The notes under the pieces were generated by a model, which had not been told where the DNA came from, made no database searches, and saw only the letters and a program-made list of their open reading frames with translations. The position numbers and the translations under genes are program-made. Positions 3,371 through 43,248 of a stretch of DNA of 64,000 nt are shown one piece after another (the first letter of the stretch is position 1; each line of letters starts with the position of its first letter). Origin of the DNA: a virus; the IMG/VR virus record IMGVR_UViG_3300006076_000001, positions 29,787 through 93,786 of that record; one strand, 5' to 3'.

Positions 3371-3985
3371 TCAGAGAGGGTTTATGTCTATTAACTCTCT
3401 CTTAAACCTACTTTTATCTGGTAAAACCAAAATTAATGTGTCTTTTCCTTTCTCTAAGGATTGTAATTTAGGTAATAATTTTATAAACTCATCATAAGAA
3501 TTAATAATTATTTCTTTTGTAATAGGCTTGGTTTGTTGATGTGTTTCTTCTTTATCTATATCAGAAGATATGTCTTCTTGTGTTTTTTCTTTGTCTTCCT
3601 TGCATTCTGTAGCATTATTAGCTATATTAGTAGCTGGATTATCTTTATGTGGCTCTTCTTGATTTTCTTTAAACCCATTTTCTAATAATTGCCACTTCAT
3701 AATCTCCAAATGATAAGTGTATGGATTTAAAGATGATGTAGCGGTGTAACTACCCCATTTATCATACTCCACATCAAATTTAAAAGTGATATACGGATAG
3801 CCAACTTGGTTAAACACTTTTTGTAATTCAATAATTCTAACCATTTGTAAAGCTAAAGGTTGATGTAAAAATCTATCCATTATATTCACGATTTCATCGT
3901 GCACCGAAAAATTATTAATAAATAAGTCCTGATGTAAATTTAACATAACCTCTTTCATTGTTTTATCTAACTTAATCAATGGCAT
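3371..3985 (-). CDS. Unknown protein carrying the dispersed in-frame repeat
   Basis: 204 residues; I do not recognise a family. The N-terminal ~105 residues (DEIVNIMDRFLHQPLALQMV, FKFDVEYDKWGSY) look globular. Residues ~117-142 (ATNIANNATECKEDKEKTQ and following) are encoded by a copy of the dispersed element also found at 41111 and 57579. The C-terminus has an EFIKLLPKLQSLEKGKDTLIL segment. The repeat sits between the two apparent domains, as if it were a tolerated linker. Confidence 0.75.
   Translation of the reverse strand: MPLIKLDKTMKEVMLNLHQDLFINNFSVHDEIVNIMDRFLHQPLALQMVRIIELQKVFNQVGYPYITFKFDVEYDKWGSYTATSSLNPYTYHLEIMKWQLLENGFKENQEEPHKDNPATNIANNATECKEDKEKTQEDISSDIDKEETHQQTKPITKEIIINSYDEFIKLLPKLQSLEKGKDTLILVLPDKSRFKRELIDINPL
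3561..3635. repeat. Dispersed palindromic element, copy A (in CDS)
   Basis: 75 bases, gap-free alignable with copies at 41111-41185 and 57579-57653. It ends in the 16-bp core AGCTATATTAGTAGCT (3620-3635), a hairpin with AGCTA/TAGCT arms, and is translated in frame. Confidence 0.8.
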
Positions 3986-4032: not shown

Positions 4033-4863
4033 TTAAAAAATCTTTTCTAAGTTCCATTTTTCTATAAAATCGACTGGGAATGATACCAATCTATCTAATT
4101 CTAAAATTACTTGTTCTCCGTCATAAACAATAAATTTATGTGAGCCATCTGGTAAAGCATCTAACTCTTTTTCTAACTGCTCTTTGTCTATCTTATCAAA
4201 TTTATCTTTAGATAGACCTATTATTCTTGTGTATGGTTTATAGGTATGTTTTAAGTCCCCAAACATTCTATTTAGTCTATTTTTTTCAATCCACTTATTT
4301 ATAGCCGTAATGATGAGAATCAATTGGATAGCTGATGCACTCTGAATTGGAAAGTTCATCGCTAATCTCTCAGCTTGGGATTTAAGAGACCAATATTTCT
4401 TTCTAAGTTTTGGGTCGGCTTTTTCCTCTGGAGTAATTTTTCTTGTAGCCATAGGTAAATATCTTTTTGAGCCAAAAATGTTATCTGTGTACCCCTCAGT
4501 TTTTACTCTTTCTTTTTGAAATTTATGTAATACTTTAAGTCTTGATAGATTAGAATAAAATCTATTAATAATTTCATTTGCTTCCTCTTTTGATATACCT
4601 ACTTTTTGAGAGACTGTGTATTCAGTTCCACCATATAATAAAGCTAACCCGACTGTTTTAGCAATAGCCCTCATTTCATTTTTGAATTTATGATATGCCT
4701 CTTTATTACCAGTTGCTTCATACTCCCTAACCAATTTATCAAACTCTTCTCCATAAATGGATAAAGCATTGGCACTATGGAAGTCTCCTATATAAGTTTT
4801 TGGAGTATCATCTTTATAATCTTTTAATTCCTCAAAAATCTTACTTAACTTAGCTTTATCCAT
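4033..4863 (-). CDS. Family A DNA polymerase, C-terminal fragment (motifs B and C)
   Basis: 276 residues. It begins at the segment after motif A (GDFHSANALSIYG, matching DIHTATA of Pol I). It has motif B as R65-AIA-K69-x7-YG and a Q/S-A-rich O-helix-side motif (FPIQSASAIQL). Motif C is VYDGE, where most relatives have HDE; the catalytic Asp is D248. The DxSxxE motif A is absent from both this fragment and the N-terminal fragment at 13881-15599. The start has AAAGGAGCAAATAATG. It may be DpoZ-like given the PurZ-like enzyme in this phage, but that is inference. Confidence 0.85.
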   Translation of the reverse strand: MDKAKLSKIFEELKDYKDDTPKTYIGDFHSANALSIYGEEFDKLVREYEATGNKEAYHKFKNEMRAIAKTVGLALLYGGTEYTVSQKVGISKEEANEIINRFYSNLSRLKVLHKFQKERVKTEGYTDNIFGSKRYLPMATRKITPEEKADPKLRKKYWSLKSQAERLAMNFPIQSASAIQLILIITAINKWIEKNRLNRMFGDLKHTYKPYTRIIGLSKDKFDKIDKEQLEKELDALPDGSHKFIVYDGEQVILELDRLVSFPVDFIEKWNLEKIF

Positions 4864-5242
4864 TATTTGCTCCTTTTACTCCTACATTTGTAATTTTATT
4901 TATCTCCCACATTTTATTTTCCGAATGAAAAGTAAATACATAGTTAATGTCTCTATCAAAGAAATATTGTTTATCTCTATCACAAACTGGTATTTTTTCT
5001 GGATTTAGATTTAAGAAAGAATACAAAGTGTAAATGTTAAGTGGGGTTATTTTTAACCCTCTTGTATCTTCATTAAATGAGACCTCAAAATCTAAATGAC
5101 TTTTATCATACCCTAAATCTAAACATACAGATAATAAATCAGAGTGTATTTGATGTATTAAAAAATTAGTATAAATGGCACATTCATACTTATTTAACAC
5201 TTTCTGAATCTCTAACCTTAACTGAAATTTAGTTTTATCCAT
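4856..5242 (-). CDS. Unknown 128-residue protein
   Basis: No family recognised. It begins MDKTKFQLRLEIQKVLNKYE and ends KGANNG. Its start junction GGAGCAAATAATGGATAAA is repeated exactly at the start of the next gene (polymerase C fragment). It overlaps the downstream start by 8 bases and the upstream endonuclease stop by 8 bases. I infer it entered or was duplicated together with the endonuclease upstream. Mixed alpha/beta look, cytoplasmic. Confidence 0.7.
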   Translation of the reverse strand: MDKTKFQLRLEIQKVLNKYECAIYTNFLIHQIHSDLLSVCLDLGYDKSHLDFEVSFNEDTRGLKITPLNIYTLYSFLNLNPEKIPVCDRDKQYFFDRDINYVFTFHSENKMWEINKITNVGVKGANNG

Positions 5243-6566
5243 TATTTGCTCCTATTTCTGATTTCACTAAATCAATAATTGTTTTCTTTATTTCCTCATC
5301 AGTCTTATAATATGGTATTCTAATTAATTTAATTTTGTTATCTTTTGCAAAAGTATCTTTAATTTTATCTCTTTGTTTAATTTTTTCAAATCCTATTTTT
5401 CCACCCCAATTATCAACTGGCTCAAAATGTTGTTTTCCGTCATACTCAATAAAGGTGTTATAATCTGGAAGATAGAAATCAAAATAATAATTTGAATCAT
5501 TAATTTTAACTCTGTATTGATGAATATAATTAACACCTAATTCATCTAAAATTGATTGAATAAATAACTCTCCTTTTGAAGTATTACATTTAGGACAGCC
5601 GTGATTGTTTAAATGATTGTCTATCCTTTGATAAAACAATTCGTGTTGAGGACAAACAATTGGGATTTTTTGTTTATTATTTTGATAATTACTCTGCCAC
5701 CAATCCAATGATGGATAGGTATATCTATCTCCGTGAGTTTGGATAGCACTCTTAATAAAGTCTTGATATGATAATCTATGATTGTTTTCCAGCTTTTCTC
5801 TACCACATTTGAGACAACCTCTACCCTGTAAATGACTTTCTACACTTTGATAAAATAAGCCGTGAATGGGACAGATAATAGGTATTTGGGTAGAGTTATT
5901 TTTGTAATTTTCTTGCCACCAATTAGCATCAATTGGGTAGATATAAAAATCATTATGGATTTTAGTGGCTTTATTAATAAACTCTTCATAAGATAATCGT
6001 TTAAAATCTTCTGATTTCTTTCTCCCACATTTGGGACAACCTCTACCCTGTAAATGTTTAGCTATTTTTTGTTTAAATTCTCCGTGAATAGAACAAACAA
6101 TTGGAATATAAGTTGATTGTAAAGTTTTGTAGTTTTCTTGCCACCAATTTTCATCAAAAGGATAGATGTATTTATTATTGTGAATCTTATTTGTTCTATC
6201 TATAAACTCTTTATAAGACATTTTTAAAGTGTTTTTACCACATTTAGGACAGCCATATAATTGATGGTTAGTAACACTTTGATAAAATAAGCCGTGAGTA
6301 GGACAAACAATTGGGACTTTAGTGTTTTTATCTTTATAATTGGAAATAAACCAATCCAATGTAAATTGAGAATAGTTGTATCTATTTTTATGAACTTTTC
6401 TAAATTTCTCTAAAATCAAATGGTATTGAAACTCTTTTGGTAATTTAGAAATGGTTGATGATTTTATTGATTTTAAATCATTAAAAGAGAGGTTTTGGAG
6501 AAGTCCTCTCCACTTATCTAAATTAGATAAGTTGTCTGTAAGTTGTTTAATTTCTTTCAAATTCAT
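5235..6566 (-). CDS. Homing-endonuclease-like protein with zinc-ribbon repeats and PD-(D/E)XK-like nuclease
   Basis: 443 residues. After the family N-terminal domain (MNLKEIKQLTDNLSNLDKW) come five repeats, each with WW or DWF, a CP.HG.F phrase and a CxxCG knuckle. The C-terminal nuclease domain has YYFDFYLPDY, FIEYDGKQHF and KLIRIPYYKTDEEI, a restriction-enzyme-like D...E-x-D-G arrangement. The same nuclease domain is fused to NrdB in the gene just upstream. Frame and knuckles are intact, so it is probably active. DNA cleavage specificity is unknown. Confidence 0.85.
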   Translation of the reverse strand: MNLKEIKQLTDNLSNLDKWRGLLQNLSFNDLKSIKSSTISKLPKEFQYHLILEKFRKVHKNRYNYSQFTLDWFISNYKDKNTKVPIVCPTHGLFYQSVTNHQLYGCPKCGKNTLKMSYKEFIDRTNKIHNNKYIYPFDENWWQENYKTLQSTYIPIVCSIHGEFKQKIAKHLQGRGCPKCGRKKSEDFKRLSYEEFINKATKIHNDFYIYPIDANWWQENYKNNSTQIPIICPIHGLFYQSVESHLQGRGCLKCGREKLENNHRLSYQDFIKSAIQTHGDRYTYPSLDWWQSNYQNNKQKIPIVCPQHELFYQRIDNHLNNHGCPKCNTSKGELFIQSILDELGVNYIHQYRVKINDSNYYFDFYLPDYNTFIEYDGKQHFEPVDNWGGKIGFEKIKQRDKIKDTFAKDNKIKLIRIPYYKTDEEIKKTIIDLVKSEIGANNG

Positions 6567-6576
6567 TTAAACTCTT

Positions 6577-7653
6577 TTAATCAAAGAGGTCATCTACATC
6601 TACTGCTTTTTTATTTCCAGTGCTTCTTTCGAAAGAATAATCAGTTACTGTATTAGTAAATGGGTTTGTATCTCTAACTTTCATTGATGATGAATCTTCT
6701 GCTTCAAATCTATCATCATATCTTTTGTAAGGGTTTTCTGTGTAAGAACTATAAGGGTTATTTGAAATACCTATCTCTCTAAGTCTTTTATTAGCTAAAA
6801 ATCTTGTATATTTTTCTATGATTGCATCAGAGAAACCTACAATTGGAGCAAGAATATCTTTACTAAATTGTTCTTCTAATTCTACTCCTTTTCTCATTTC
6901 TTCAATAACCATTTCCTCATCAAAGAAATCTGGGTATATTGCTCTTATCTCTTTAATTAAGTTTCTATATAGGATTAGATGTGAAACTTCGTCTCTATTG
7001 ATTAAGTAAATCATATCTGCGGTAGACCTCATTAGTCCTTTCTCAGCAAGAATGTAAAAGAACTTAAATCCATTATAAAAATAAAGTCCCTCTAAAATAT
7101 AATCACCAATAATAGCTCTAGCAAAAGTTCTATCAGTAGGGTTATCTGCGAAATCCTGATAAATTTGAGCTATATATCCATTTCTTTCTTTAAGTAATTC
7201 GTGAGTTCTCCAAAAGTCATAGATTTGTTTCTTCTCCTCTGGAGTAGGTATTACAGTCTCAATACAAGTAGAATAAGCCTGAGAATGTATGTCTTCTTGA
7301 AAAGCTTGGAAAACTAATAAAGATGTTACATCTGGAGCTGTGATGTATGAAGCAAACTGAAATGGATTGATTGTTTGAATTGAATCTAAAAACACTAAAA
7401 ATGACAGAATACCATTATATCCTCTTTGAACTTCTGGTAATAAGTTAGGATATTGTCTAGCATCTTCATAGAACTCTATATCCTCTGGAAACCAAATGTC
7501 CTTTCTCATTTTAGTTCTTAAATCTTGATACCATTTTTTATTTGCATATTTACCAAAGTTATGAGTAGCCAATCCAGTTGTATTAGCACCAATAATATCA
7601 TTTTTAAATGAATCTCCCTCTGGATTCCATAGTCTTCTTTTTTTAATCCTCAT
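6577..7653 (-). CDS. nrdB: Ribonucleotide reductase beta subunit, internal start within the fusion
   Basis: ATG at 7651-7653 follows AAAGGAG at 7662-7668 with 8 bases of spacing, a near-ideal ribosome site. It would give a 358-residue NrdB, the usual family size. The protein holds the di-iron and tyrosyl radical centre that NrdA (25343-27682) needs to reduce ribonucleoside diphosphates. Sequence alone cannot tell whether the fusion, the short form or both are made. Confidence 0.75.
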   Translation of the reverse strand: MRIKKRRLWNPEGDSFKNDIIGANTTGLATHNFGKYANKKWYQDLRTKMRKDIWFPEDIEFYEDARQYPNLLPEVQRGYNGILSFLVFLDSIQTINPFQFASYITAPDVTSLLVFQAFQEDIHSQAYSTCIETVIPTPEEKKQIYDFWRTHELLKERNGYIAQIYQDFADNPTDRTFARAIIGDYILEGLYFYNGFKFFYILAEKGLMRSTADMIYLINRDEVSHLILYRNLIKEIRAIYPDFFDEEMVIEEMRKGVELEEQFSKDILAPIVGFSDAIIEKYTRFLANKRLREIGISNNPYSSYTENPYKRYDDRFEAEDSSSMKVRDTNPFTNTVTDYSFERSTGNKKAVDVDDLFD

Positions 7654-8757
7654 AGCTCTATCTCCTTTCATCTTAATTAAATTTTTAATAGTGTGTTCCA
7701 CTTCTTCATCAGTTTTATAATATGGTATTCTAACCAATTTAATTTGGTTGTTTTTTGCAAAATCATTTTTAATTTTATCCCTCTGTTTTACCTTTTCAAA
7801 CCCTACCCTACCACCCCAACCCTTAATTGGTTTAAAGTGCTGTTCTCCGTCATACTCAATAAAAATGTTATAGTCTGGAAGATAAAAGTCAAAATAATAA
7901 TTTGAATCATTAATTTTAACTCTATATTGATAGATATAATTAACATCTAAATCGTCTAAAATTGATTTTATTTTGAGTTCTCCCTTAGACGATTTACAAA
8001 CAGGACAGCCGTGATTGTTTAAATGATTATTAACTGATTGATAAAATAGACCGTGAATAGGACAAATAATTGGGACTTTGGTGTTATCTTTTCCTTTATA
8101 ATTTTCTCGCCACCAGTTATTATCAAAAGGGTACTGATAGTAACTATTATGGATTTTAGTAGCTTTATCAATAAACCCTTTATAAGACAATTTTTGATTA
8201 TCAGTTGAACTCTTTTTTCCACACTTAGGACAGCCGTGATTATTTAAATGGTCGCCTACTCTCTGATAAAACAAACTATGAATAGGGCAAATAATAGGGG
8301 CTTTGGTATGTCTGTTTTTATAATTTTTATTCCACCAATTCTCATTAAATGGATACTGATATCTACCATTATGAATCTGAATAGCTTTTCTAATAAAATC
8401 TTGATAGGATAATTTTTTATTTCCAATACATTTAGAACAATTTTGCCCTCTCAAATGTCTATCTATCCTTTGATAAAACAATCCGTGTTGAGGACAAATG
8501 ATTGGAACTTTTTGTTTGTTATTTTGATAATTATCTATAAACCAATTTAAGGTAAATTTAGAATAATCATATCTATTTCCGTGAATCTTTCTAAACTTCT
8601 CTTTAACCAAATAATATTGGAACTCTTTTGGCAACTTGGAGATGGTTGTTGGTTTTATTAGTTTTAATTCCTCAAGAGAGGAATTTTTAATAAACCCTTT
8701 CCATTTGTATAAACTTTTGAAGTTGTCTGTAAGTTGTTTAATTTCTTTCAAATTCAC
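6577..8757 (-). CDS. nrdB: Endonuclease fused in frame to ribonucleotide reductase beta subunit
   Basis: 726 residues. Residues 1 to ~368 are a repeat-type endonuclease very similar to the next gene (5235-6566), with three complete zinc-ribbon repeats plus partial copies and a YYFDFYLPDY / FIEYDGEQHF nuclease. Residues 369-726 are class Ia NrdB. No stop separates them. NrdB begins MRIKKRRLWNPEGD and keeps the iron ligands and radical Tyr in E-D-I-H-S-Q-A-Y, plus EGLYFY and RDEVSH. An internal ribosome site before residue 369 suggests NrdB is also made alone. RNR genes are common homing targets; here the nuclease appears to have lost its stop at the insertion point. Confidence 0.85.
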   Translation of the reverse strand: MNLKEIKQLTDNFKSLYKWKGFIKNSSLEELKLIKPTTISKLPKEFQYYLVKEKFRKIHGNRYDYSKFTLNWFIDNYQNNKQKVPIICPQHGLFYQRIDRHLRGQNCSKCIGNKKLSYQDFIRKAIQIHNGRYQYPFNENWWNKNYKNRHTKAPIICPIHSLFYQRVGDHLNNHGCPKCGKKSSTDNQKLSYKGFIDKATKIHNSYYQYPFDNNWWRENYKGKDNTKVPIICPIHGLFYQSVNNHLNNHGCPVCKSSKGELKIKSILDDLDVNYIYQYRVKINDSNYYFDFYLPDYNIFIEYDGEQHFKPIKGWGGRVGFEKVKQRDKIKNDFAKNNQIKLVRIPYYKTDEEVEHTIKNLIKMKGDRAMRIKKRRLWNPEGDSFKNDIIGANTTGLATHNFGKYANKKWYQDLRTKMRKDIWFPEDIEFYEDARQYPNLLPEVQRGYNGILSFLVFLDSIQTINPFQFASYITAPDVTSLLVFQAFQEDIHSQAYSTCIETVIPTPEEKKQIYDFWRTHELLKERNGYIAQIYQDFADNPTDRTFARAIIGDYILEGLYFYNGFKFFYILAEKGLMRSTADMIYLINRDEVSHLILYRNLIKEIRAIYPDFFDEEMVIEEMRKGVELEEQFSKDILAPIVGFSDAIIEKYTRFLANKRLREIGISNNPYSSYTENPYKRYDDRFEAEDSSSMKVRDTNPFTNTVTDYSFERSTGNKKAVDVDDLFD

Positions 8758-8770
8758 TAAATCCCCTATT

Positions 8771-9214
8771 TTAATTTATTTCCCCGTCATCATCTATAAT
8801 GACATACTTTTTATTTCCAAAAAGGTTAGTATCCTCATCTTTTGATTTAGGTTTAGCTGGAGCAACTTTTAATTGTTCTTTCTTTTTTATATAAGTTTTA
8901 AGTAGAACACAATACCCTACTAAATCATTTATCGTATCTACTATCGTCTCATCGCTAACATTTATCTCTTCGCTTTTTGTTATAGATGCAAGTCTGGATA
9001 GTTTATCACCCATTCTACTAATAATAACTGATTCAACTGGAATGTCTAATAAGTCTGCAGATAGTTTAAAGTTTTTAAAAGTGTCTTCTTTACCAGAATA
9101 ATCTCTACCTTTTCTAACCAAAGTGTCCTTTAATTCAGAAAATGTTTTGTCTAATGTTTCAATCACTTCTTCTTGTGTAGCAAATACATTGTGATGAATT
9201 TTTCTTCTTTTCAT
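8771..9214 (-). CDS. DUF1599 / Nmad1-type nucleotide-modification-associated protein
   Basis: 147 residues using the ATG at 9212-9214, which has AAAGGAG upstream; a longer start at 9232 lacks one. The family pattern is clear: KGRDYSGKEDTFKNFKLSADLL, RMGDKLSRLASIT, then DETIVDTINDLVGYCVLLKTYI. Such all-helical proteins are found with phage genes for modified nucleotides (nucleotide modification associated domain 1, known by context). The acidic tail (YVIIDDDGEIN) is extra. It lies directly upstream of the NrdB fusion, among nucleotide genes. Exact reaction unknown. Confidence 0.7.
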   Translation of the reverse strand: MKRRKIHHNVFATQEEVIETLDKTFSELKDTLVRKGRDYSGKEDTFKNFKLSADLLDIPVESVIISRMGDKLSRLASITKSEEINVSDETIVDTINDLVGYCVLLKTYIKKKEQLKVAPAKPKSKDEDTNLFGNKKYVIIDDDGEIN

Positions 9215-9247
9215 TTGTTTTTCTCCTTTCATTATTTATGCCTTGTT

Positions 9248-9277
9248 TTTATAAGGTTATTTAGATTTTATGATTAA
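9248..9277 (-). promoter_or_regulatory. Possible phage-type promoter before the Nmad1 gene
   Basis: Minus strand: TTAATCA, 17 bases, TATAAA. CCTT/AAGG arms flank the -10 box. Weaker -35 and one base longer spacing than consensus. Confidence 0.4.
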
Positions 9278-9840
9278 TTTCCTCTGTATTCTTCCCACTG
9301 ATTGAGGGTAAAATCAAATTTATATCTAATTGGTTTTAATCGGTCTAAAAACATCATAATAGGCTTAACCTCTCTACCCTTCATTTCTAATAAAAGCTGA
9401 TAATCATCAATTTGAGATGGGACTGAAAGATAATATTGAACCACCTCTGTTTTAGACTCTTTTAATGGAAAATGCTTACTTTTTAAAATCATTAAATTAA
9501 CATTAAATTGTTTTTCAAATTGTTTAATTAACCTTTTTGCTATTGAAGAAAGCTCTTTTTTATTATCAATCTCAATAGTGTAATTACCTTTAACAAAAGT
9601 AATTTTAGAATCTGATTTGTCGTCCATTTTAAAGTTTTGCTCTTCTATCCATTTTATCCATTCATCTAACTTTCCCCCACAAAATTTATATCTGTATTCT
9701 ACATTGCCACCCTCTTTACCAAAGACAAACCACCATTTATATTGGTCTGCCTTTTCCAAATATACAAATGGGTCGGTAATTGATTCAAATAATTGAACTG
9801 CTCTTTCTTTACAACAAGGGTACTGAATAATTTTATCCAT
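9274..9840 (-). CDS. Unknown 188-residue protein
   Basis: The start chosen is ATG at 9838-9840 (MDKIIQYPCCKERAVQLF) behind AAAGGAG. It overlaps the ThyX stop by 8 bases. Aromatic-rich (YKWWFVFGKEGGNVEYRYKF) with a later KELSSIAKRLIKQFEKQF helix. No family recognised. It lies between ThyX and the Nmad1 protein, so a link to nucleotide metabolism is possible only by neighbourhood. Confidence 0.75.
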   Translation of the reverse strand: MDKIIQYPCCKERAVQLFESITDPFVYLEKADQYKWWFVFGKEGGNVEYRYKFCGGKLDEWIKWIEEQNFKMDDKSDSKITFVKGNYTIEIDNKKELSSIAKRLIKQFEKQFNVNLMILKSKHFPLKESKTEVVQYYLSVPSQIDDYQLLLEMKGREVKPIMMFLDRLKPIRYKFDFTLNQWEEYRGN

Positions 9841-10771
9841 TAATGTCTCCTTTATCTTCAAAATCTGGAGCTACTCCACTACCAATATTATTTAATATGG
9901 ATAAGTCTGTTTCCAGCAAGTCTTCCTCTACTTTTTTATAATGATTAACTATTTTATCATCAGTGAAAATAATTTCTTTAAATAAAGTTGGTAATGATTT
10001 AATCATTAAATAAGAAACTATTCTAAACTCCCAAAGAGCCTCTGGAGATAATCTTAGATGTAAAATGTGTAAAAACTCTCTAAAATTGACTGTAAATTGA
10101 AGTTCTGTTCTAAAAGACTCTGGGATTGAAAATTTAGCAATGTCGTTAGAAACTCCCACACTTATGCTTTGTCTTACATTTTCCAATGCTAAAATAGAGT
10201 TATGGTCTGTCCTATCATTACCTGTATAAATCAGATATTTAGAAGCCCTTTTACCTATTTCTGTTTCTTGACAACGGAAATCCGATTCTAAATAAAATGG
10301 CTTTTCATCTTTCAACTCTTTCAAAGTGTATCTGGTAGATTTAACAGTCGGACTAATTAACCTATGGCGTGAAAATTCCTGTAAGGTGGCTCTACTCATT
10401 CCAATATGGAATGACAAAGTGCTATGTTCTAACACTGATTCGTGTTTATATTTAAACCCAACTCTCTTAATGAGTTCTTTATCTTTATATCCTAAATGAT
10501 GATAAATTGGGACTCTGGTAAAACAATCATTACACTCTATCTCATCATTTTCATTCCTATAGATGTTAGTACCTCCACATTCTCCACAAGTCAATTGGTT
10601 TTTCTGATTATGTAAAACATTTATCATATATGAATCACTAAGTCTGTGATTATTATGTGAATATCTAATCCCGTTAGCTATAAGCCATAAAGGTTTATAA
10701 TCCAAAAGTTTAACATCGATGTTTGTGTCAATTGGTCTGCAACTTTCATAAGGTAAGTTAATTCTAATCAT
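9833..10771 (-). CDS. thyX: FAD-dependent thymidylate synthase ThyX with zinc-ribbon insert
   Basis: 312 residues. ThyX makes dTMP from dUMP with methylene-tetrahydrofolate and FAD. The signature RHR-x7-S is at R135-S145 (RHRLISPTVKS). HESVLEH precedes it, and FRTELQFTVNFREFLHILHLR with EALWEFR follows. Unusual is a four-Cys zinc ribbon (C62, C65, C80, C83) in the N-terminal part, making the protein longer than the ~220-250 typical. It lies in a run with Nmad1 and NrdB and complements the dUTPase and dCMP deaminase elsewhere in the window. Confidence 0.92.
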   Translation of the reverse strand: MIRINLPYESCRPIDTNIDVKLLDYKPLWLIANGIRYSHNNHRLSDSYMINVLHNQKNQLTCGECGGTNIYRNENDEIECNDCFTRVPIYHHLGYKDKELIKRVGFKYKHESVLEHSTLSFHIGMSRATLQEFSRHRLISPTVKSTRYTLKELKDEKPFYLESDFRCQETEIGKRASKYLIYTGNDRTDHNSILALENVRQSISVGVSNDIAKFSIPESFRTELQFTVNFREFLHILHLRLSPEALWEFRIVSYLMIKSLPTLFKEIIFTDDKIVNHYKKVEEDLLETDLSILNNIGSGVAPDFEDKGDING

Positions 10772-10784
10772 TTTTCTTCTCCTT

Positions 10785-10988
10785 TTATTTAAAGATTAAA
10801 TAATCAATGGGATAAAAAATGATAGCCCCTATAATTTGGACTATTACTAAATGAATAAACTCTTGATATTTACCAGAACAACATTTAATTTTAATAAGCA
10901 ACCATAATGGCAACATCATAACCAAAGCAGATAATATCCATCTACCTAAATAAAGTAAGAACTGAAAAGAAAAGTAATCTACAAACAT
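10785..10988 (-). CDS. Small membrane protein
   Basis: 67 residues from ATG 10986-10988, behind AAAGGA. It has two strongly hydrophobic segments (FLLYLGRWILSALVMMLPLW and FIHLVIVQIIGAIIFYPIDY) separated by a short KIKCCSGK loop, so two transmembrane helices are likely. It begins one base after the transglycosylase stop, so the two envelope proteins are probably co-translated. A holin-like or partner role is possible but unsupported. Confidence 0.7.
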   Translation of the reverse strand: MFVDYFSFQFLLYLGRWILSALVMMLPLWLLIKIKCCSGKYQEFIHLVIVQIIGAIIFYPIDYLIFK

Positions 10989-10989
10989 T

Positions 10990-11718
10990 TTATTTTCCTT
11001 TAACATCATTCAAATATAATTTAATTGACAGTAGATTTCCGATAAAGTTATTAACTTTATCTAAATAATAGGTTGGGTTTTTTGGTATCACCCCATAGTA
11101 TCTTATAATAGCTGACTCCATTGGTGTTTTAACTCCCTTTAAAATAGGTTTTTCTCTTAAAGTTTTAAGAATAAAAGCGGTTGCCTCTACATTTGTATCA
11201 ATGTTATACAAGTCTGACTTTGTAGTAGCGATTTTAGCTTTAATTAAGTCCCATTTCCACATTTCCCAAATAACACCACCTAAACCAATAGCTCTTGTAT
11301 GTATCTTAACAAACCTTGTTTTAGATTGATTAATAGGGACTGAAACATAAACTCTTGAATGTTTAATCCAAAATCTCATTGAACTCTCAGTATGTAACAC
11401 TGCAAACAAAATAATAGGAGAGATGTTATACTTTTTAGAATATTTTAAGATAGCATCATAAATTCTCATTTTAGATTTATTTGATAAAAAATTATAATGA
11501 GAGTATAAGTAATCTTTTAAATCGTCTTTTGTAATTCCAACAAGAGAACTATTAGAATCAATATAAACAGGAACTTTTTTTATCACTTTATTTTCAACTA
11601 TTTTAGTTATTGTTTTAACCTCAGGTTTAATGTGAGTTAGTTTATAAACCAAAAAACCAATCACAATAATACCAATTACCCAACTGGAAATAATTAAAAT
11701 AATGACTCTTTTATTCAT
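10990..11718 (-). CDS. Membrane-anchored lytic transglycosylase-like protein
   Basis: 242 residues from ATG 11716-11718 with GGGGAG upstream. One N-terminal transmembrane helix (VIILIISSWVIGIIVIGFLV) is followed by a periplasmic part. An SLT-like domain has NISPIILFAVLHTESSMRF (Glu as catalytic acid) and RAIGLGGVIWEMW, matching the A-x-G-L segment, then a late Y-Y-G motif. Cleaves peptidoglycan glycan strands if active. It sits away from the lysis cassette, so entry or wall remodelling rather than final lysis is possible. Confidence 0.7.
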   Translation of the reverse strand: MNKRVIILIISSWVIGIIVIGFLVYKLTHIKPEVKTITKIVENKVIKKVPVYIDSNSSLVGITKDDLKDYLYSHYNFLSNKSKMRIYDAILKYSKKYNISPIILFAVLHTESSMRFWIKHSRVYVSVPINQSKTRFVKIHTRAIGLGGVIWEMWKWDLIKAKIATTKSDLYNIDTNVEATAFILKTLREKPILKGVKTPMESAIIRYYGVIPKNPTYYLDKVNNFIGNLLSIKLYLNDVKGK

Positions 11719-12229
11719 TTGACTCCCCTTTAATAAAATAAAAATCATCTGGTTTAGATAAGAACTGGTCTAAAGTAATAATCATATTATCTTTATAATA
11801 AAGGATTGGAGAAAAGTCTTTATTTAAAGTATTAGGTAGGATACAAAATGGATTAACTAAGTTATATTTAACTATAACTACCCAATAAGGTTTGCCAGAA
11901 GTTTTATTATCCAATTTAGCTTGTTCTATCCATTTATCCCATTGAGTAATTTTTTGCTCTAAAAATGATTTAAAAGATGGTGGGTTTCCGTAAAATTTAC
12001 ACTCTATATTAAATTTAAAGTTTTTTGGAGTAACTATGTCTCCAACAACTTTTGCATCGTCCGCTACCATCATAGCAACTCTGGCATTTTTACCACCAAA
12101 TCTAGACCCACTTCCTAAATTTCTAAGAAACCCTTTTTTAACTTTAAGATAAGAAGCAAACCTATCAGAAAGAAGATTTGCTATCTTTCTTTCAAAATTA
12201 TCCCCCTTAGCTTTAGAATTAATTGCCAT
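11711..12229 (-). CDS. PD-(D/E)XK nuclease, Holliday-junction-resolvase-like
   Basis: 172 residues. The N-terminus KAKGDNFERKIANLLSDRF supplies the first Glu. GSGSRFGGKNA and VVGDIVTPKNFKFNIECKFY give the D...E-x-K core of resolvases and related nucleases. It would resolve branched DNA before packaging or in recombination. The start is one base after the stop of the upstream coiled-coil gene. A restriction-like nuclease with another role cannot be excluded. Confidence 0.7.
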   Translation of the reverse strand: MAINSKAKGDNFERKIANLLSDRFASYLKVKKGFLRNLGSGSRFGGKNARVAMMVADDAKVVGDIVTPKNFKFNIECKFYGNPPSFKSFLEQKITQWDKWIEQAKLDNKTSGKPYWVVIVKYNLVNPFCILPNTLNKDFSPILYYKDNMIITLDQFLSKPDDFYFIKGESNE

Positions 12230-12230
12230 T

Positions 12231-12842
12231 TTATAACTCCATTTGAATTATATTTTGACCTGAAGCCATTATTTCATTTATAGCTGATGAGTCTAAGATT
12301 TTTTGTTTTAATCTGATTGATGACTCTAATCTCATCAAATAATCGTTTTGCTTATCAAGGAACTTGACAAGCTCTTTTATTGAGTTATAAACTCTTTCTA
12401 TCCTCTTAAATTGATTAGACAAAGGAAGAGTAATGTAATTAACCTCTCTTTCTCTTTCTGCATTTGAATTGGTTAAATGATACAGAGTTTCATCAACCAA
12501 TAATTCCTGTTGAGTAGTAGATAATGTTATTTTAGCATCATTGTAAAGTTTATTTACCTCTGGCATAATATAAACAGCATTTTTAGTCAAAATGTCATTC
12601 AATTTATAAATGGCTTTATGGATTAATGCTAAAGCATCTAATTGAGGTAGATTTTTCTCTACTAATTCAGAAGCTATTTTATAAGGAATGTAAGGTGAAT
12701 CTACAAATTCAAGGACTTGTTTTCTAAGTTTAGTTTGGTATTCGCTAAGTTCTTTTTCTACTTCTTTAAATTCCTCTACCATTGGCTCTATTTCTTTTCT
12801 CTTATCTCTTCTAAAAGAAAAAATTGTTTTAACTTTTTGCAT
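12231..12842 (-). CDS. Coiled-coil protein of unknown function
   Basis: 203 residues, largely helical with heptad-like stretches (EPMVEEFKEVEKELSEYQTKLRKQVLEF; KRIERVYNSIKELVKFLDKQ; SIRLKQKILDSSAINEIMASG). Basic start MQKVKTIFSFRRDKRKE. It overlaps the upstream gene by 14 bases and is followed directly by the resolvase-like nuclease. No family recognised; a structural or DNA-associated role is possible. Confidence 0.75.
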   Translation of the reverse strand: MQKVKTIFSFRRDKRKEIEPMVEEFKEVEKELSEYQTKLRKQVLEFVDSPYIPYKIASELVEKNLPQLDALALIHKAIYKLNDILTKNAVYIMPEVNKLYNDAKITLSTTQQELLVDETLYHLTNSNAEREREVNYITLPLSNQFKRIERVYNSIKELVKFLDKQNDYLMRLESSIRLKQKILDSSAINEIMASGQNIIQMEL

Positions 12843-13125
12843 CTTCTGACTCCTTTCCTGCTATGTTTTCAACATTGTTTGCATAGTATATTTCAAAGTC
12901 CTCTTTAGAAACTTCCATAATATTTATTATAACAATATTATCAAAATCTACTTTCAATGATTTTGCTATATCTTCAACCAGAGTTTTTCTATTTACAAAT
13001 AGTCCGTTACCAGTAATTATGGAGATTTCTCCGTATTGTTTATCAAATGAACTCATTCCTAAAGGACTAACAAACTCTCTTGTATAAACAAAAGAAATTA
13101 TAAAATATCTTTTATTCACTTTCAT
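12829..13125 (-). CDS. Unknown 98-residue protein
   Basis: Begins MKVNKRYFIISFVYTREF, with alternating strands and helices (VDFDNIVIINIMEVSKEDFEIYYANNVENI). No family recognised. Overlaps both neighbours by 14 bases, typical of translational coupling in this operon. Confidence 0.75.
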   Translation of the reverse strand: MKVNKRYFIISFVYTREFVSPLGMSSFDKQYGEISIITGNGLFVNRKTLVEDIAKSLKVDFDNIVIINIMEVSKEDFEIYYANNVENIAGKESEDAKS

Positions 13126-13492
13126 CTGATTTACCTTTTTCTTTTTTATAATAAGCTGTAATAAGTTTAGCTAAATTAGAAATCATTTCACCTTTATGAT
13201 ACAAATAATCACTATAGTTAATTACCCCGTCAATTACAAATGATTGATAATGGTTTATTCTGTTTATAGTTTGCAATGTTTGAATAACTGGCATTTTATC
13301 AGAAGCAATTGTGTATCTGATTTCAAGTCTGCCTCCTTTTGATGAGTAGTCGTCTCTAAGTGGATTTTTATAATCAGATGCAACAATTACTTCCACTGGT
13401 TTTAAATTAGCTTCTTCAATGTCTTTTAGATATTTATCTTTGTATTGACTTGGTAGTTTATCTAAAATCTCTTTAATAACTAAACTAAGCAT
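13112..13492 (-). CDS. Unknown 126-residue protein
   Basis: MLSLVIKEILDKLPSQYKDKYL start, a beta-rich middle (GRLEIRYTIASDKMPVIQTL) and a charged tail (YYKKEKGKSDESE). Ribosome site AAGGAGTCGGAG. No family recognised. Part of the run of small genes downstream of the polymerase N-terminal fragment. Confidence 0.75.
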   Translation of the reverse strand: MLSLVIKEILDKLPSQYKDKYLKDIEEANLKPVEVIVASDYKNPLRDDYSSKGGRLEIRYTIASDKMPVIQTLQTINRINHYQSFVIDGVINYSDYLYHKGEMISNLAKLITAYYKKEKGKSDESE

Positions 13493-13513
13493 CTCCGACT
13501 CCTTTCTGATTTA

Positions 13514-13858
13514 TTATTTTAAATAAGTATCCACAACAGGTGTGTATCTTTTGTAACTAGGTGAAGAAAATAATAACTCTAATTGAGTTGTTTTGTTCTC
13601 CTCACTTTTAATTTTAATATCATTAATAATTTGCCATCTGCTTTGCTCTGCCTCATCAGGATTACCATAAACAAATTCAATTTCTTCTACTCTTGTATCT
13701 GATAATTTCACTGTAACTGAATAAACATAACTGACTTCTTTTTGTTTCTTAAAAAATCCCCCTGTAACTTCTACCCTTTCTTCCACTGGAGAAATCATTA
13801 AAATATTATTATAATCTCCAACCAATGTGCCATCTGGCAATAAAATTGCTTTATCCAT
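13514..13858 (-). CDS. Unknown beta-rich 114-residue protein
   Basis: ATG at 13856-13858 with AGGAGG 7 bases upstream is preferred over a TTG two codons earlier. Strand-rich (ILLPDGTLVGDYNNILMISP, YVYSVTVKLSDTRVEEIEFVYG), resembling a small beta-barrel. No family recognised. Immediately downstream of the polymerase N-terminal fragment. Confidence 0.75.
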   Translation of the reverse strand: MDKAILLPDGTLVGDYNNILMISPVEERVEVTGGFFKKQKEVSYVYSVTVKLSDTRVEEIEFVYGNPDEAEQSRWQIINDIKIKSEENKTTQLELLFSSPSYKRYTPVVDTYLK

Positions 13859-13880
13859 TTTCAAACCTCCTAATATAAGA

Positions 13881-15599
13881 TTAATTCTTGCTTTTATATT
13901 CCCAAGAAATTAAAGTGTTAATTATTCTTTGTTCTGCTTCTCTCTCTAACTCTTCCATTTGTGGGAGTTTAGTAACGACTTTTTTTAATTTAACCAATTT
14001 TGGTGATTCTGACGGCATACCCTGAGTATTTAAAGAGTGGGTAATACCATTACCTAATTTTAATTTACAATTTGTTTTAGTTTTAAGTTTATTAAAAGTT
14101 GCATATCTTGGGTGTCCTGACCCTTTTTCATTTGCAAATCTTAGGGTATCAGTACCGATGTATCTCAAATTAATATTAACAAAAAAATGGTTTCTGTCAT
14201 CAATGTAAAGGTTATATAAAATACCATAATAAATTGCTATATCTTTAACTAAAGACCTATATAAAGAAATAATACTTAATAAAGTTTGAATATCTTGTTT
14301 AGTATCCTCTGGTAAGAACTCTGCTTCCATAACAGCTGATTTAAATTTAGATAAAATGGAGTCATCCATATTGAACTGCTCTTTAATTGCACCACTTTTT
14401 AATTTATCTACTTTTCTAACCAATCCAAAATAGTCCTCTATATACTTATAGAAGTTATTTTCATCTCCTTTCCATAAAGGTTTTAGTATATAATTAACTA
14501 TTATCACAGACACCATAGGACTGACTACTGATATCTCCTCTTCATAACCATACTTTTTAAGTGTATTAATAAATTTTTGCTCTAAAAGTATCATTCTAAT
14601 GTTAATTGTTTTGATTGTCCTAACCAATCTGTCTTTATCGATTAAAAGCCCGTATTGTAAAGATGAAATTACATAATACAAAGCTTGATGAACTATTTTA
14701 GTTGTAGTAGGTTGCTCTTTATATGGGTTTCTACCATAAATGTCGTCTATCACAAATGCTTTAAACAAACCATAGGTATTAGTAGCATCTGACCCAGCAT
14801 ATGTTAAAGCATTTGAAACTGGCAACCTGTTAAAAGAAATGTGATTTTTAGTGGGTAAATTTAAAATTTCATTAATTTCAAGCATCTTTCTATTAAGTAC
14901 ATACTCTGATAATGCTTTAAGCCCATGACCTATATTCATAGGCATAAACTCTTGATTATTCATCAATTTTGAAACCAACATTGTATCTGTTATTGGGATA
15001 TTACCTATTTTAATTCCCCAGTTAGATAAATGAGCTAAGTCAAATTGTGCGTTATGTAAAACAATATGGAAATTGTCTATCAACCATTGTAAAAATGGTT
15101 TGACTTGTGTCTCCCAATCTAAATTTTTTATGCCATCTGTTTCTGTATGTTTAACTGGTAAAATAAACCCCTCTTTATCAGAAATAGCTAACGGAACTGA
15201 AACGATTTCTGTATCTGGAACAAACCTACCTTTAATCAATTTACCTTTAGTAGATAACCCCGAAGTTTCTAAATCCAATGCAATAACAGGTTTATTGAAG
15301 CCGTCATAAGTAACTGCTTTCTCTTTAATATAACTTTTGAATTTATCTAAATCTTTATCTACAACTTCTACATAATCAGCAATTGGAGTAAATAATTTAT
15401 CCTTATCAATCTCAGTTGTAATAATTTTAAAAGAACATTCCTTTACCCAGTCGTGCATTTTAGCAAAATTATGAGGTAAAAATACCTCTGACGGCTCTAA
15501 TGGAGAAAAGTCTTTTTCTAATTTACTATCAATTAATTCCTGATAATTTGGGATTTCAACAGGAACTTTATCATAAACAAAAAAATCTTTATACTTCAA
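13881..15599 (-). CDS. Family A DNA polymerase, N-terminal fragment (3'-5' exonuclease plus start of polymerase)
   Basis: 572 residues. The start is TTG at 15597-15599 with AGGAG five bases upstream; no ATG fits. The proofreading exonuclease motifs are complete: ALDLETSG (D109, E111), HNAQFDL (N183, D187) and YAGSD (Y267, D271). A thumb-like helical region leads to LRYIGTDTLRFA (~479-489), equal to the Pol I T-G-R-L-S-S region, and SLNTQGMPS, equal to NLQNIP. It ends before motif A. The rest of the polymerase lies 9 kb further on at 4033-4863. No visible gene supplies motif A. Confidence 0.87.
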   Translation of the reverse strand: MKYKDFFVYDKVPVEIPNYQELIDSKLEKDFSPLEPSEVFLPHNFAKMHDWVKECSFKIITTEIDKDKLFTPIADYVEVVDKDLDKFKSYIKEKAVTYDGFNKPVIALDLETSGLSTKGKLIKGRFVPDTEIVSVPLAISDKEGFILPVKHTETDGIKNLDWETQVKPFLQWLIDNFHIVLHNAQFDLAHLSNWGIKIGNIPITDTMLVSKLMNNQEFMPMNIGHGLKALSEYVLNRKMLEINEILNLPTKNHISFNRLPVSNALTYAGSDATNTYGLFKAFVIDDIYGRNPYKEQPTTTKIVHQALYYVISSLQYGLLIDKDRLVRTIKTINIRMILLEQKFINTLKKYGYEEEISVVSPMVSVIIVNYILKPLWKGDENNFYKYIEDYFGLVRKVDKLKSGAIKEQFNMDDSILSKFKSAVMEAEFLPEDTKQDIQTLLSIISLYRSLVKDIAIYYGILYNLYIDDRNHFFVNINLRYIGTDTLRFANEKGSGHPRYATFNKLKTKTNCKLKLGNGITHSLNTQGMPSESPKLVKLKKVVTKLPQMEELEREAEQRIINTLISWEYKSKN

Positions 15600-16320: not shown

Positions 16321-16773
16321 TTAAAGATAGATTGGAGATGGTAAGTAAGACTCTACAATAGTATTAATTTCTCTTGTAGATTTATTATAAGCGGTATTTA
16401 TAATCAACTTTTCTATTACCAAAGGTGGGATTTTTAAATTGAAACTTCTAAATAATTTAATTAATTCTGTAATTTTAGTGTCTTTAGCTTGAGTATTATT
16501 AGAAAATTGAATGCCATAATTTGTATAGATGTATTCTACTGCCTCTTGATAAGAAAACCCTTTAAGTTCCATTAAAAAAGTAGTAGGGAGATAAGCTTTA
16601 CCAGTTCCGAAATCATAAGCCGACCCAAAGTCATTTTCATCTTTTGGTTTGTAAATTCTAAATGATGGATTTGAGTCGCTTCTGAATGGAGAGGAAATAG
16701 TATAATCTCTCCACTCTGGAATCTCCTCTCCCAATTCATCACTAACTATTTTAGCAAAAAGGTTAATTGCCAT
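16321..16773 (-). CDS. Primase zinc-domain-like protein lacking its cysteines
   Basis: 150 residues. The segment SPFRSDSNPSFRIYKPKDEN, YDFGTGKAYLPTTFLMELKG and FSYQEAVEYI follows the DnaG-type primase N-terminal domain (CPFHxExxPSF, CFGCGxxGD, FxEAV) but without the zinc Cys/His. A Toprim domain that could complete the primase is encoded separately at 43245-43874. I infer a split primase or a relic that still binds DNA or the helicase. The start MAINLF has a standard ribosome site. Confidence 0.6.
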   Translation of the reverse strand: MAINLFAKIVSDELGEEIPEWRDYTISSPFRSDSNPSFRIYKPKDENDFGSAYDFGTGKAYLPTTFLMELKGFSYQEAVEYIYTNYGIQFSNNTQAKDTKITELIKLFRSFNLKIPPLVIEKLIINTAYNKSTREINTIVESYLPSPIYL

Positions 16774-21769: not shown

Positions 21770-23611
21770 TCAACCCTCCCATTCCCATTTAAAATTACCA
21801 GAATTATAAACCCGATACCACCCAGCTAAATCCATAATTTCCCGTTCTGTGTAATCACCTTTAGCTTCAAAAACTTTAGAAATAATAGGCTTTAAATAAT
21901 CATAATTTAATAATTTATGTTTTTGAAAATGATTTCTACTGTATCTCTTAGTCTTATCTGGACTGATATAAAAATAAGATGGGTCAGTTATACTAATCAA
22001 TTTAAATCCCGCTTTATAATAAACCGAATCAGTCTCAAGATTGTTTAAATCTATTGCCGAAAAGGTTATGATTTTATCAGGATTATTTTCTCTTAAAAAG
22101 TGTTTAAATAATTTAGAGAACCCACCGACTACTGAATAATTTCTCTCCGTAGCAAATCTATCTATTTCCCAATAATCCTTTTTCTTGATAAAAGTCAGAA
22201 CTTGAATCAATTTGTCTTGATAAAATAAGCCATAATATAAATTGGACGATTTAGTCCCCTGAAAATGATTTCTATCTAAAAAGTCTTTAACATCTTTATA
22301 TTTAAGTTGTCTAATTTCACATTTTCTAGCATAAACCCTGTATTTTGATTTACCTAATTGATTCCTTATAAAAGCAAATACTAAGTCTCTCTTATTCAAC
22401 CACCAATCCTCCCAGATATGTACTAACTTAATTCCTTTTTCTGCAAAATACAATGACTTTTCTTGATGATACTTTGGATGTTTAAATTGGTCTGAATGCC
22501 ACCTAATCCCGTTAAACTCAAAGCCTATATTAAGTTCTGGAATAAAGATGTCTATTTCATATTTACTGTCTTTGTATTTAGTAGTATTAAATCCAAAAGA
22601 TTCTATATATCTTCTTATCTCTTCCTCCCCATTTGAAAAAGTATTCCCACATTTAGGACAACCCTCACCCTGCAAATGAGAATTAACCTGTTGATGGAAT
22701 AAGCCGTGTTGAGGACAAATAATTGAAACTTTTTCTTTACTATTTCTATAATGTTGTTTCCACCAATCTAATGATGGGTAAATATATTTATTTCCGTGAA
22801 TTTGTGTAGCTTTTTCTATAAACTCTTGATAAGAAAGTCTATTTTTATCTCCCATTGTTTCATAACCACATTTAAGACAGCCTTTACCACTTAGATGACT
22901 ACCCACACCCTGCATAAATTCTCCGTGTTGAGGACAAATAATTGGTACTTTGGTATCTTTATTTTTATAATTCTCTTGCCACCACTCTTCATTAAAAGGG
23001 TATTGATACCTGTTTTTATGGATTTTGGTAGCTTTACTAATAAAGTCTTGATAAGATAACTTTTTATTATTAGCACATTCGGGACAGCCTAAACCTTTTA
23101 AATGATTTTCTGCTTTTTGATAAAATAACCCGTGTTGAGGACAAATGATAGGGACTTCACTTTTCATCCCTCTATAGTTATTACACCACCAATCATTATC
23201 AAAAGAGTAATTATATAAATTATTATGGACTTTAGTGGCTTTTCTTATAAAGTCTTGATAAGAAAGTTTTCTATTTTTAGCACATTTAGGACAGCCGTGA
23301 TTATTAAGATGGTCGTTTATTCTTTGATAAAATAAGCCGTGAATGGGACAGATAATAGGTATTTTAGTTGCACTCCCACCAAAATTATCTATAAACCAAT
23401 CTAATGTAAATTGAGAGTAATCGTATCTGTTATTATAAATTTTGATTAATTTCTCTAAAATTAAATAATATTGGAACTCTTTTGGTAATCTTGAAATAAC
23501 AGCGGAATTTATAGACTTTAATTCCTCAAGAGAGGAATTATTGAGAAATTGTTTCCATTTATTTAAATTAGTTAGATTATCTGTAAGTTGTCTAATATCT
23601 GACAATCTCAT
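21770..23611 (-). CDS. Homing-endonuclease-like protein with zinc-ribbon repeats, Vsr-like nuclease and C-terminal domain
   Basis: 613 residues. N-terminal family domain (MRLSDIRQLTDNLTNLNKW), then five zinc-ribbon repeats (ICPIHGLF ... CPKC). A Vsr/EDxHD-like nuclease follows (YEIDIFIPELNIGFEFNG, WHSDQF, HIWEDWW). The ~190-residue C-terminal domain has RNHFQGTKSSNLYYGLFYQD and YYKAGFKLISITDPSYFY, seen in many phage free-standing endonucleases. It shows the full form of the truncated gene at 1-1105. It lies between portal and sigma-like genes; its stop is not followed by an obvious target scar. Confidence 0.87.
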   Translation of the reverse strand: MRLSDIRQLTDNLTNLNKWKQFLNNSSLEELKSINSAVISRLPKEFQYYLILEKLIKIYNNRYDYSQFTLDWFIDNFGGSATKIPIICPIHGLFYQRINDHLNNHGCPKCAKNRKLSYQDFIRKATKVHNNLYNYSFDNDWWCNNYRGMKSEVPIICPQHGLFYQKAENHLKGLGCPECANNKKLSYQDFISKATKIHKNRYQYPFNEEWWQENYKNKDTKVPIICPQHGEFMQGVGSHLSGKGCLKCGYETMGDKNRLSYQEFIEKATQIHGNKYIYPSLDWWKQHYRNSKEKVSIICPQHGLFHQQVNSHLQGEGCPKCGNTFSNGEEEIRRYIESFGFNTTKYKDSKYEIDIFIPELNIGFEFNGIRWHSDQFKHPKYHQEKSLYFAEKGIKLVHIWEDWWLNKRDLVFAFIRNQLGKSKYRVYARKCEIRQLKYKDVKDFLDRNHFQGTKSSNLYYGLFYQDKLIQVLTFIKKKDYWEIDRFATERNYSVVGGFSKLFKHFLRENNPDKIITFSAIDLNNLETDSVYYKAGFKLISITDPSYFYISPDKTKRYSRNHFQKHKLLNYDYLKPIISKVFEAKGDYTEREIMDLAGWYRVYNSGNFKWEWEG

Positions 23612-23648
23612 CTGACTCCCTTTATATTATCTTTACTTTTTATAATAA

Positions 23649-25331
23649 TTACATTTCATCTTCTAAGTCTCCAAGAATTTCTTTTTTAATTTTTGCTTCC
23701 TCTTTTATTTTTCTTAATGTCTCTTCATAATCCATTCCAAGATAATCTTCAATTAAAATGCTAACTGGTAATTTACCATCACTAATAAGGTCACTAATTT
23801 TATCAATATAATCTTCTATGATTACACTACCTTTATAATAACCTATTCTTGGATAAATAGGTTGAGGCTTTCCTAAAGTGTTAAAATAATAAAATCCTTT
23901 TTTAATAGCAATAGGGATAACAATTCTATCTCTGATTATACTCATTATATGAGAGGTAATAGTGTTAAACTCAGTTTGTAACATTTGAAGACTAATAAAA
24001 CTATTTCCATATGAATCGTCTCCACTAATAAGTGCTGTAGGGACACCTAACCCACTAGCAACTGCTTCTATTAATTCACCTTTATCATCATCAGATAAAC
24101 TATCCTTAATTGCAAAGTCTATATCTGTTACGGATACATCATAATTAGTTCCTATAATAGATATATCATTTTGTTGAGCCATTTCTGTAATGTCATCTAC
24201 CAAAAGATTTATTTCGTCTGGAGTGCTTTCAGTAGAAGTAACTATCTTTACATTTTTATCAATTGCATTAATTTTCTTTCTTCTTTTTAATTTTGCTGTA
24301 TGTAAATCTATTAACTCCTCTAAAATAGAAATTAAAGTGGTAGATTTATCATCAGTTGCTATCTCTACAAAGTAGATTGGCTCTGATGTATCATTAGTAA
24401 TAGTTATTGTTTCCCTACCCTCAAAAATAGCATCTACATTTAAAGAAGCGAATGTAGAAGTATATCCCATTCTTACTAGCTTAGATACAATCTGTTTTTT
24501 AATGTTATGTTGTGCTTCTTCAGAATAACCAAATTCTGACATTAATTTAGGTTTATTTGACTCTATGTATTTTTTGATATATGGAGAAACTGGGATTTCA
24601 ATTTCCATAAAGTCGATTTCTGTATTTTCTGAAATAGAATTTATCTCAAACACTGAAAGGACTTGTATTCTTTCTATACCTGAAAAATTAGCATCAAACA
24701 TAGGCATTATTTTTTGAATAACCCATTTAATATCTTTATAAACTACTTCCTCTGGATTTATATTATACTTTTCTACAATCTGATTAATTTTTACCAAATC
24801 ATCTTTTATATAGGTAACTATTTTAGTATCATCTAAATAATCAAAGTTACTGTATGCTTTATTGTCTATTTGCTCTGTATCTACAATAACGAATGCTCTT
24901 CCATAAACATAATAATTAAAAAAGATTTTATGTAATTTATCTATAAAATTAATTTTTTCAAAATTTTGAGAAAAGAAATCATAGACTACATCTTGTATAA
25001 TATCATTATCAGGGTTTTTAGGTTTAATAATTGAAACCGCCGATAATGGTATCTTAATTTTAAGATTAATAGCTCTCCTAACAATATGATTCTTTTTGTA
25101 AAAATAATATGCTAACAAAGCCTGATGATATGAGCTTAGTATGTCTAAATTTAATGACCCCTCAGATAACCTTGCTATTAATGCTGAAGCTTCTACCAAT
25201 AAAGGGTCATTGTCATATTCAATATCATCTTCATCACCGCTTAAAATCTCTTCCTCTATAAGTTTATTATTACTTTTAACAAAAGAGAAAAGAGAAGCTG
25301 TCATATGAGTTTTTTCTGTTTTTTCAGCCAT
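23649..25331 (-). CDS. Portal protein
   Basis: 560 residues, a normal portal length for large myoviruses. Pattern: acidic N-terminus, SSYHQALLAYYFYKKNHIVRRAI, wing-like beta segments, the stem-type segment around LGVPTALISGDDSYGNSF with LQMLQTEFNTITSHIMSIIRD, and a C-terminal helical tail (EEAKIKKEILGDLEDEM). It forms the dodecameric DNA gate of the head. It lies downstream of terminase and the putative protease, with NrdA inserted between. Confidence 0.8.
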   Translation of the reverse strand: MAEKTEKTHMTASLFSFVKSNNKLIEEEILSGDEDDIEYDNDPLLVEASALIARLSEGSLNLDILSSYHQALLAYYFYKKNHIVRRAINLKIKIPLSAVSIIKPKNPDNDIIQDVVYDFFSQNFEKINFIDKLHKIFFNYYVYGRAFVIVDTEQIDNKAYSNFDYLDDTKIVTYIKDDLVKINQIVEKYNINPEEVVYKDIKWVIQKIMPMFDANFSGIERIQVLSVFEINSISENTEIDFMEIEIPVSPYIKKYIESNKPKLMSEFGYSEEAQHNIKKQIVSKLVRMGYTSTFASLNVDAIFEGRETITITNDTSEPIYFVEIATDDKSTTLISILEELIDLHTAKLKRRKKINAIDKNVKIVTSTESTPDEINLLVDDITEMAQQNDISIIGTNYDVSVTDIDFAIKDSLSDDDKGELIEAVASGLGVPTALISGDDSYGNSFISLQMLQTEFNTITSHIMSIIRDRIVIPIAIKKGFYYFNTLGKPQPIYPRIGYYKGSVIIEDYIDKISDLISDGKLPVSILIEDYLGMDYEETLRKIKEEAKIKKEILGDLEDEM

Positions 25332-42657: not shown

Positions 42658-43248
42658 TTATTTATCGAATCTTGTCAAAACTTTAAACTCATTAAAAAGT
42701 TTTCTCAAATATAGAGATGTATTAAATTCAAATACCGCTTTTACATCTTTATTCCAAAAATGTATTGGTTTCACAGTAACAAACTCCTCTTCATAACATT
42801 TTCTTAATACCTCTGGATTATCATCAATAATAATTGACGGATATAATAACCATTTTTCCCTCATAGTTATCATATGAGTGTCATCTATAAATTTTGGAAA
42901 ATGTTTTCTTAATGATTTGATTTTACCATAATAAGTATCTCTATTTGGAACAACAATGTGTGTAACAAATCTAAATTCAAAATCGTCCCAAAAGTCATTT
43001 ATTACTTCAACCATACCCTCATAAGGCTTCATATTCTCAAAAAAGTCTTCATTTAAGTATTTATATCTCTCTTCCTCTGATAATCCAAAAATTTCGTGAA
43101 AATGATACTTAGAACATTGATTTTCTGTAACTGAAATTTTTTCTCCTGTAGCTTTAAAATAAGCCTCCTCAAAAGCACTTATATAATCAAAAATCGTTGA
43201 ATCCATATCTACATAAATCAATGGCTTACCATTAATAATCTTTATCAT
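42658..43248 (-). CDS. 5'(3')-deoxyribonucleotidase-like HAD phosphatase
   Basis: 196 residues. HAD motif I is VDMDST (D14, D16, T18), motif II is around FVTHIV, and the late acidic motif is SIIIDDNPEV. Members remove phosphate from deoxynucleoside monophosphates. With the other nucleotide enzymes it may adjust dNMP pools. Overlaps the primase Toprim gene by 4 bases. Confidence 0.75.
   Translation of the reverse strand: MIKIINGKPLIYVDMDSTIFDYISAFEEAYFKATGEKISVTENQCSKYHFHEIFGLSEEERYKYLNEDFFENMKPYEGMVEVINDFWDDFEFRFVTHIVVPNRDTYYGKIKSLRKHFPKFIDDTHMITMREKWLLYPSIIIDDNPEVLRKCYEEEFVTVKPIHFWNKDVKAVFEFNTSLYLRKLFNEFKVLTRFDK

Follow-up and report, generated by a model that had tools for sequence, protein, structure and literature searches.

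Polymerase pieces in the window and in related phages

We analyzed a 64,000-nt window, bases 29787 to 93786 of the 93,786-nt virus record IMGVR_UViG_3300006076_000001 (here called G000), in which a family A DNA polymerase is divided among separately encoded genes. Positions are those of the window unless they are given as genome positions. The first 99 nt of the record are repeated exactly as its last 99 nt, and because of this identity the sequence very likely represents a complete tailed-phage genome. It has a G+C content of 28.8% and contains terminase and capsid genes, NrdA, NrdB, ThyX, a UvsX-like recombinase and SbcC/SbcD-like proteins, together with a replication set that includes a DnaX-like clamp loader, a DnaB-like helicase and primase domains. 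An intact polymerase elsewhere in the genome, named in a preliminary description of this region as an outcome that would refute the split, was looked for, and none of family A, B or C was found in the whole record. A search of the record with PF00476 gave no match beyond the piece at 4033-4863, even at an E value of 10, and searches of G000 and its diverged relative G002 for PolB and DnaE detected neither.

The two recognizable pieces lie about 9 kb apart on the minus strand, at 13881-15599 and 4033-4863, as the preliminary description had placed them. The first encodes a 572-residue protein, the N subunit, comprising a 3'-5' exonuclease, a thumb and the T-x-R and N-x-Q elements (PF01612, E = 9e-14; phrog_17, E = 4e-23). 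It carries the acidic residues expected of a family A exonuclease (D109, E111, D187 and D271) and, ahead of the position of motif A, R487 of the T-x-R element and N524/Q526 of the N-x-Q element. The second encodes the 276-residue fingers subunit (F), which matches PF00476 at positions 199-326 (E = 5e-22) and has the R-x3-K-x7-Y pattern of motif B (R65/K69/Y77) and helix Q residues N170/Q174. Its C-terminal tail of about 80 residues has no polymerase counterpart and is mostly confidently modeled. Alignment with intact polymerases showed that N stops just before motif A and that F begins just after it, confirming that motif A is in neither piece; a six-frame search of the record for D[YF]SxxE[LIV]R, the classical DYSxxELR form of motif A, gave no match. 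Motif A is only part of what is missing: in an alignment with intact relatives F also lacks motif C, the HDE column reading YTR. The AlphaFold2 (AF2) model of F (predicted local distance difference test score [pLDDT], 74.7) aligned only to residues 672-821 of Bst polymerase (Z, 14.3; 148 residues; 2.6 A), a segment that falls strictly between the two catalytic aspartates of that enzyme, D653 and D830. The genes between the pieces number 13 open reading frames rather than the twelve first counted, and three rather than two of them are nuclease-like (5235-6566, 6577-8757 and a PDDEXK gene at 11711-12229).

A partial 62-kb record (G001) carries a fingers gene with the same truncation, at 37% identity and in the same gene neighborhood. 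G002 (126 kb), found through capsid relatives, also has a truncated fingers gene; its N gene is separate and lies at a distance of 59 kb. The O-helix R, K and Y and the helix Q N and Q of the fingers subunit are invariant in the three phages. In a capsid tree these phages fall on one side of a branch with support of 100/98; relatives with intact polymerases lie outside, and in two capsid relatives (G012 and G013) the polymerase is encoded by one gene (903 and 792 residues, respectively) and contains motifs A and C. An assembly join error, or a sequencing error, might be suspected in a metagenome-derived record; we consider this excluded for practical purposes, because the truncated split genes recur in G001 and G002, so that three independent and diverged assemblies share the arrangement, and the record itself ends in a terminal repeat. 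Scans of IMG/VR with N or the fingers piece as single proteins, and with the pattern TYKPYTRI, recovered no member beyond G001, and scans with alignments of A (described below) and N recovered G002 and one intact distant polymerase and nothing else. As a separate observation, DnaE was matched in three separate open frames at 191933-194437 of G006, a 330-kb capsid relative (record of L047), whose polymerase may be fragmented or intein split.

Candidate genes for motifs A and C

Region profiles of motif A and motif C were built from intact polymerases and compared with six-frame translations of the three phages. The motif C profile matched the immediate neighbor of the fingers gene (3371-3985, also on the minus strand; E = 0.0014). 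The homologous genes of G002 and G001 were matched with E values of 0.005 and 0.06, respectively. The predicted 204-residue motif C subunit (C) contains H29-D30-E31 in the context VHDE, the H-D-E being invariant in the three phages, and also holds the last palm strand region, FKFDVEYD. With the motif A profile, the best noncontrol match was G002 71371-72195 (E = 0.048), and the G000 homologue of this gene was matched at the same place (E = 5.5). That homologue lies on the minus strand at genome positions 22330-23148 (L003:7330-8148), 6638-7456 nt before window base 1, and encodes the candidate motif A subunit (A), a 272-residue protein containing GDIANQEP. It has the DxxxxE arrangement (D147...E152) that has no counterpart in N or F, and D-I-x-x-Q-E-P is invariant between the G000 and G002 genes. 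The suggestion in the preliminary description that a third fragment lies outside the window thus proved right for motif A; however, motif C is separate too, giving four genes in all.

In an unbiased, genome-wide ranking, every gene that G000 and G002 have in common (59 in all) was compared, as a pair alignment, with a profile of 16 intact polymerases (792 positions; motifs A, B and C at 562, 611 and 740) by using hhalign. The four top-scoring pairs were N (173-529; score, 207), F (588-730; 194), C (736-785; 38.9) and A (541-585; 34.7). They tile the profile in the order N, A, F, C without overlap, and the next pair scored 21. Against profiles of the motifs only, the motif A gene scored 34.7 (probability, 85.5%) and the motif C gene 39.0 (probability, 90%); the next unrelated pair scored 18.0, and none of 300 shuffles reached 18 for either gene. 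A second profile, built on giant phage polymerases that are about 1,200 residues long, again had these four as the top pairs, in the same order. Most of the giant enzymes have a C-x4-C-x2-C cluster a short distance ahead of motif A; a cluster of this spacing is also found in the motif A gene. All four genes are present in G000 and G002, and the fingers and motif C genes are also present in the partial G001; in this phage lineage, as judged from the genomes, the predicted four-gene family A polymerase is conserved.

Three other stretches were considered as motif A or C and rejected. The N tail ISWEYKSKN was discarded as a degenerate motif A on the grounds that its counterpart in G002 terminates in an unrelated helix; VYDGE of the fingers protein was discarded as motif C on the grounds that its D is not conserved and that the structural match stops before motif C; and ADLSQMEY (G002 76016-76414) had a low motif A score and no G000 counterpart.

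In an alternative reading that we consider unlikely, polymerase function has been lost: N would serve as an exonuclease and F as a DNA-binding protein, the host polymerase would copy the phage and the A and C matches would be due to chance. In its favor, F itself has neither catalytic aspartate, and A and C match weakly when taken as single sequences: they scored at noise level against single-sequence templates, profile searches of Pfam, PHROGs and PDB with the two subunits matched no polymerase, and neither had a match among 50,697 phage records. Further results weigh against the assignment of A and C. The second profile gave the motif A gene a score of 27.4, while the best shuffle reached 27.2. 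AF2 modeling of the motif C subunit was uninformative (pLDDT, 38.5), the motif C gene adjoins capsid genes, and N and A are known from two phages only, G001 being partial. The assignment of A and C is a joint one, drawn from profiles, position and conservation together. Against a loss of function, the invariance of the O-helix and helix Q residues is what a working enzyme would be expected to show, A and C fit exactly the two gaps and outscore every other conserved gene and every shuffle, and the phage has kept a clamp loader and primase domains of its own. A dead polymerase, one of the options in the preliminary description, is unlikely because every expected catalytic residue sits on one of the four proteins.

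Inteins, endonucleases and the origin of the breaks

The four pieces could alternatively be joined covalently before use, either by protein trans-splicing through unrecognized split inteins or by RNA trans-splicing; trans-splicing was also among the options of the preliminary description. In favor of such joining, the N gene of G002 is broken by a split intein: ...NLNGTD/CVIKDT...TNHKQL is followed by a free-standing endonuclease and then by MKRYDYIANGFVCHN/TGRYSNA..., with the C-extein stopping before motif A like the N protein of the window. There are also endonuclease genes beside the A and F genes. However, an Int-N and an Int-C with an endonuclease between them were found only at this additional break inside the G002 gene and at none of the three breaks in G000. 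The G000 pieces lack intein ends, and an Rfam search of the whole record at the gathering cutoff gave no match to a group I or group II intron. Each of the four genes has its own Shine-Dalgarno-like site, start and stop, and a nonpolymerase extension. Covalent joining in G000 is therefore unsupported, and we consider it improbable, more so than loss of polymerase function.

The endonuclease-like open reading frame at 5235-6566, free standing on the minus strand near the fingers gene, matched G002 78256-79104 by BLASTP (E = 4e-26), and the latter matches homing endonuclease PHROGs. It belongs to one family with the gene at genome positions 23150-23989, directly upstream of the motif A gene, and with the open reading frame in the G002 split intein; a further member is fused to NrdB at 6577-8757. 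The open reading frame at 5235-6566 is the probable agent of polymerase gene fracture. Most likely the gene was broken by homing endonucleases and split inteins, and the later loss of these elements would account for the present state.

Some further observations concern inteins and split genes more widely. The gene at 6577-8757 is a single open frame of an endonuclease-like region of about 360 residues and a complete NrdB. A single 1,763-codon polymerase open reading frame in LR745208, a distant 485-kb phage (L074:5815-11106), is interrupted by a large intein, located in the motif B region or immediately ahead of it, and a Dda/UvrD-like helicase gene of G002 (L064:5407-7710) has a complete mini-intein near its N terminus (CVAYDTPI...NIISHN/SG). 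In G000 the primase zinc domain (16321-16773) and Toprim domain (43245-43874) are in two genes 27 kb apart, and they are separate in G002 too. An SbcC/gp46-like ATPase seems to be split, as in G002, into a half with Walker A and the zinc hook and a half with Walker B (44331-44957 and 47356-48552). A PurZ-like gene at 39021-40391 (NF038379, E = 3e-29, below its cutoff; phrog_1211, E = 5e-17) carries the signature GSSGKG and is 44% identical in G002 and 25% identical in G001; the phage DNA possibly contains 2-aminoadenine (Z). The best NCBIfam match of the N subunit was DpoZ, tied with another family (E = 1e-4).

A putative four-chain enzyme and its relation to known split polymerases

The residues expected of a family A polymerase are all present and are spread over N, A, F and C. 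We therefore propose, with a probability of roughly 80%, that in this phage lineage a single family A DNA polymerase is produced as four proteins, which associate noncovalently into the replicative enzyme. The metal-binding aspartates would be supplied by two chains, D147 by A and D30 of the HDE motif by C; because these essential active-site residues are on two proteins, the active site would have to be assembled from parts. We think it probable, though less so than the proposal as a whole, that a single active site forms in this manner from four separately translated proteins without splicing, the two catalytic aspartates and the deoxynucleoside triphosphate-binding helix each being on a different chain. 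Contacts between the chains are probably supplied by the lineage-specific extensions that A, F and C carry.

In right-hand polymerases, motifs A, B and C are normally on one chain. If the proposal is correct, a conserved, nonspliced four-chain enzyme would show how far a right-hand active site can be divided, would explain why family searches miss the polymerases of such phages, and would provide a naturally occurring template on which split or controllable polymerases could be modeled. Whether homing endonucleases and inteins can fragment genes permanently also becomes testable.

Split polymerases as such are already known, namely, N4 RNA polymerase II, DNA polymerase III alpha, PolB of phage MIJ3 and intron-split PolA. 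A literature search (without subscription journals and most preprints) found no report of a polymerase with motifs A, B and C on three proteins. In jumbo phages, DNA polymerase III alpha is split into separate N and C units (PMC7824862), which is likewise a replicative polymerase in separate units but one of family C with two units. Family A polymerase genes of Herelleviridae such as Moonbeam contain group I introns (PMC11878797), and here too a phage polymerase lies in several open reading frames with endonucleases between them. However, the Herelleviridae exons lie side by side in their proper order and RNA splicing rejoins them, whereas in G000 the gene order does not follow that of the protein and no intron was found. 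The combination of a fractured gene, a split intein and a free-standing endonuclease was described by Dassa et al. 2009 (cited in PMC6892783), and PolB of phage MIJ3 is an example. The N gene of G002 has exactly this form, Int-N, endonuclease open reading frame and Int-C; in contrast, G000 keeps no intein halves, some of its pieces are about 9 to 11 kb apart and out of order, and its breaks look permanent.

The closest parallel to the proposed assembly is RNA polymerase II of phage N4, a right-hand polymerase whose separately encoded chains, gp15 (the N-terminal and thumb part) and gp16, form a heterodimer (PMC4496689). Noncovalent assembly, as shown for that two-chain enzyme, would be the simplest mechanism for the four proteins of G000. 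The N4 enzyme differs in being an RNA polymerase of two chains with motifs A, B and C all on gp16. In two N4 relatives gp16 is itself encoded in two genes (PMC4496689), and in the polymerase proposed here motifs A, B and C would each lie on a different chain, unlike those of N4 gp16.
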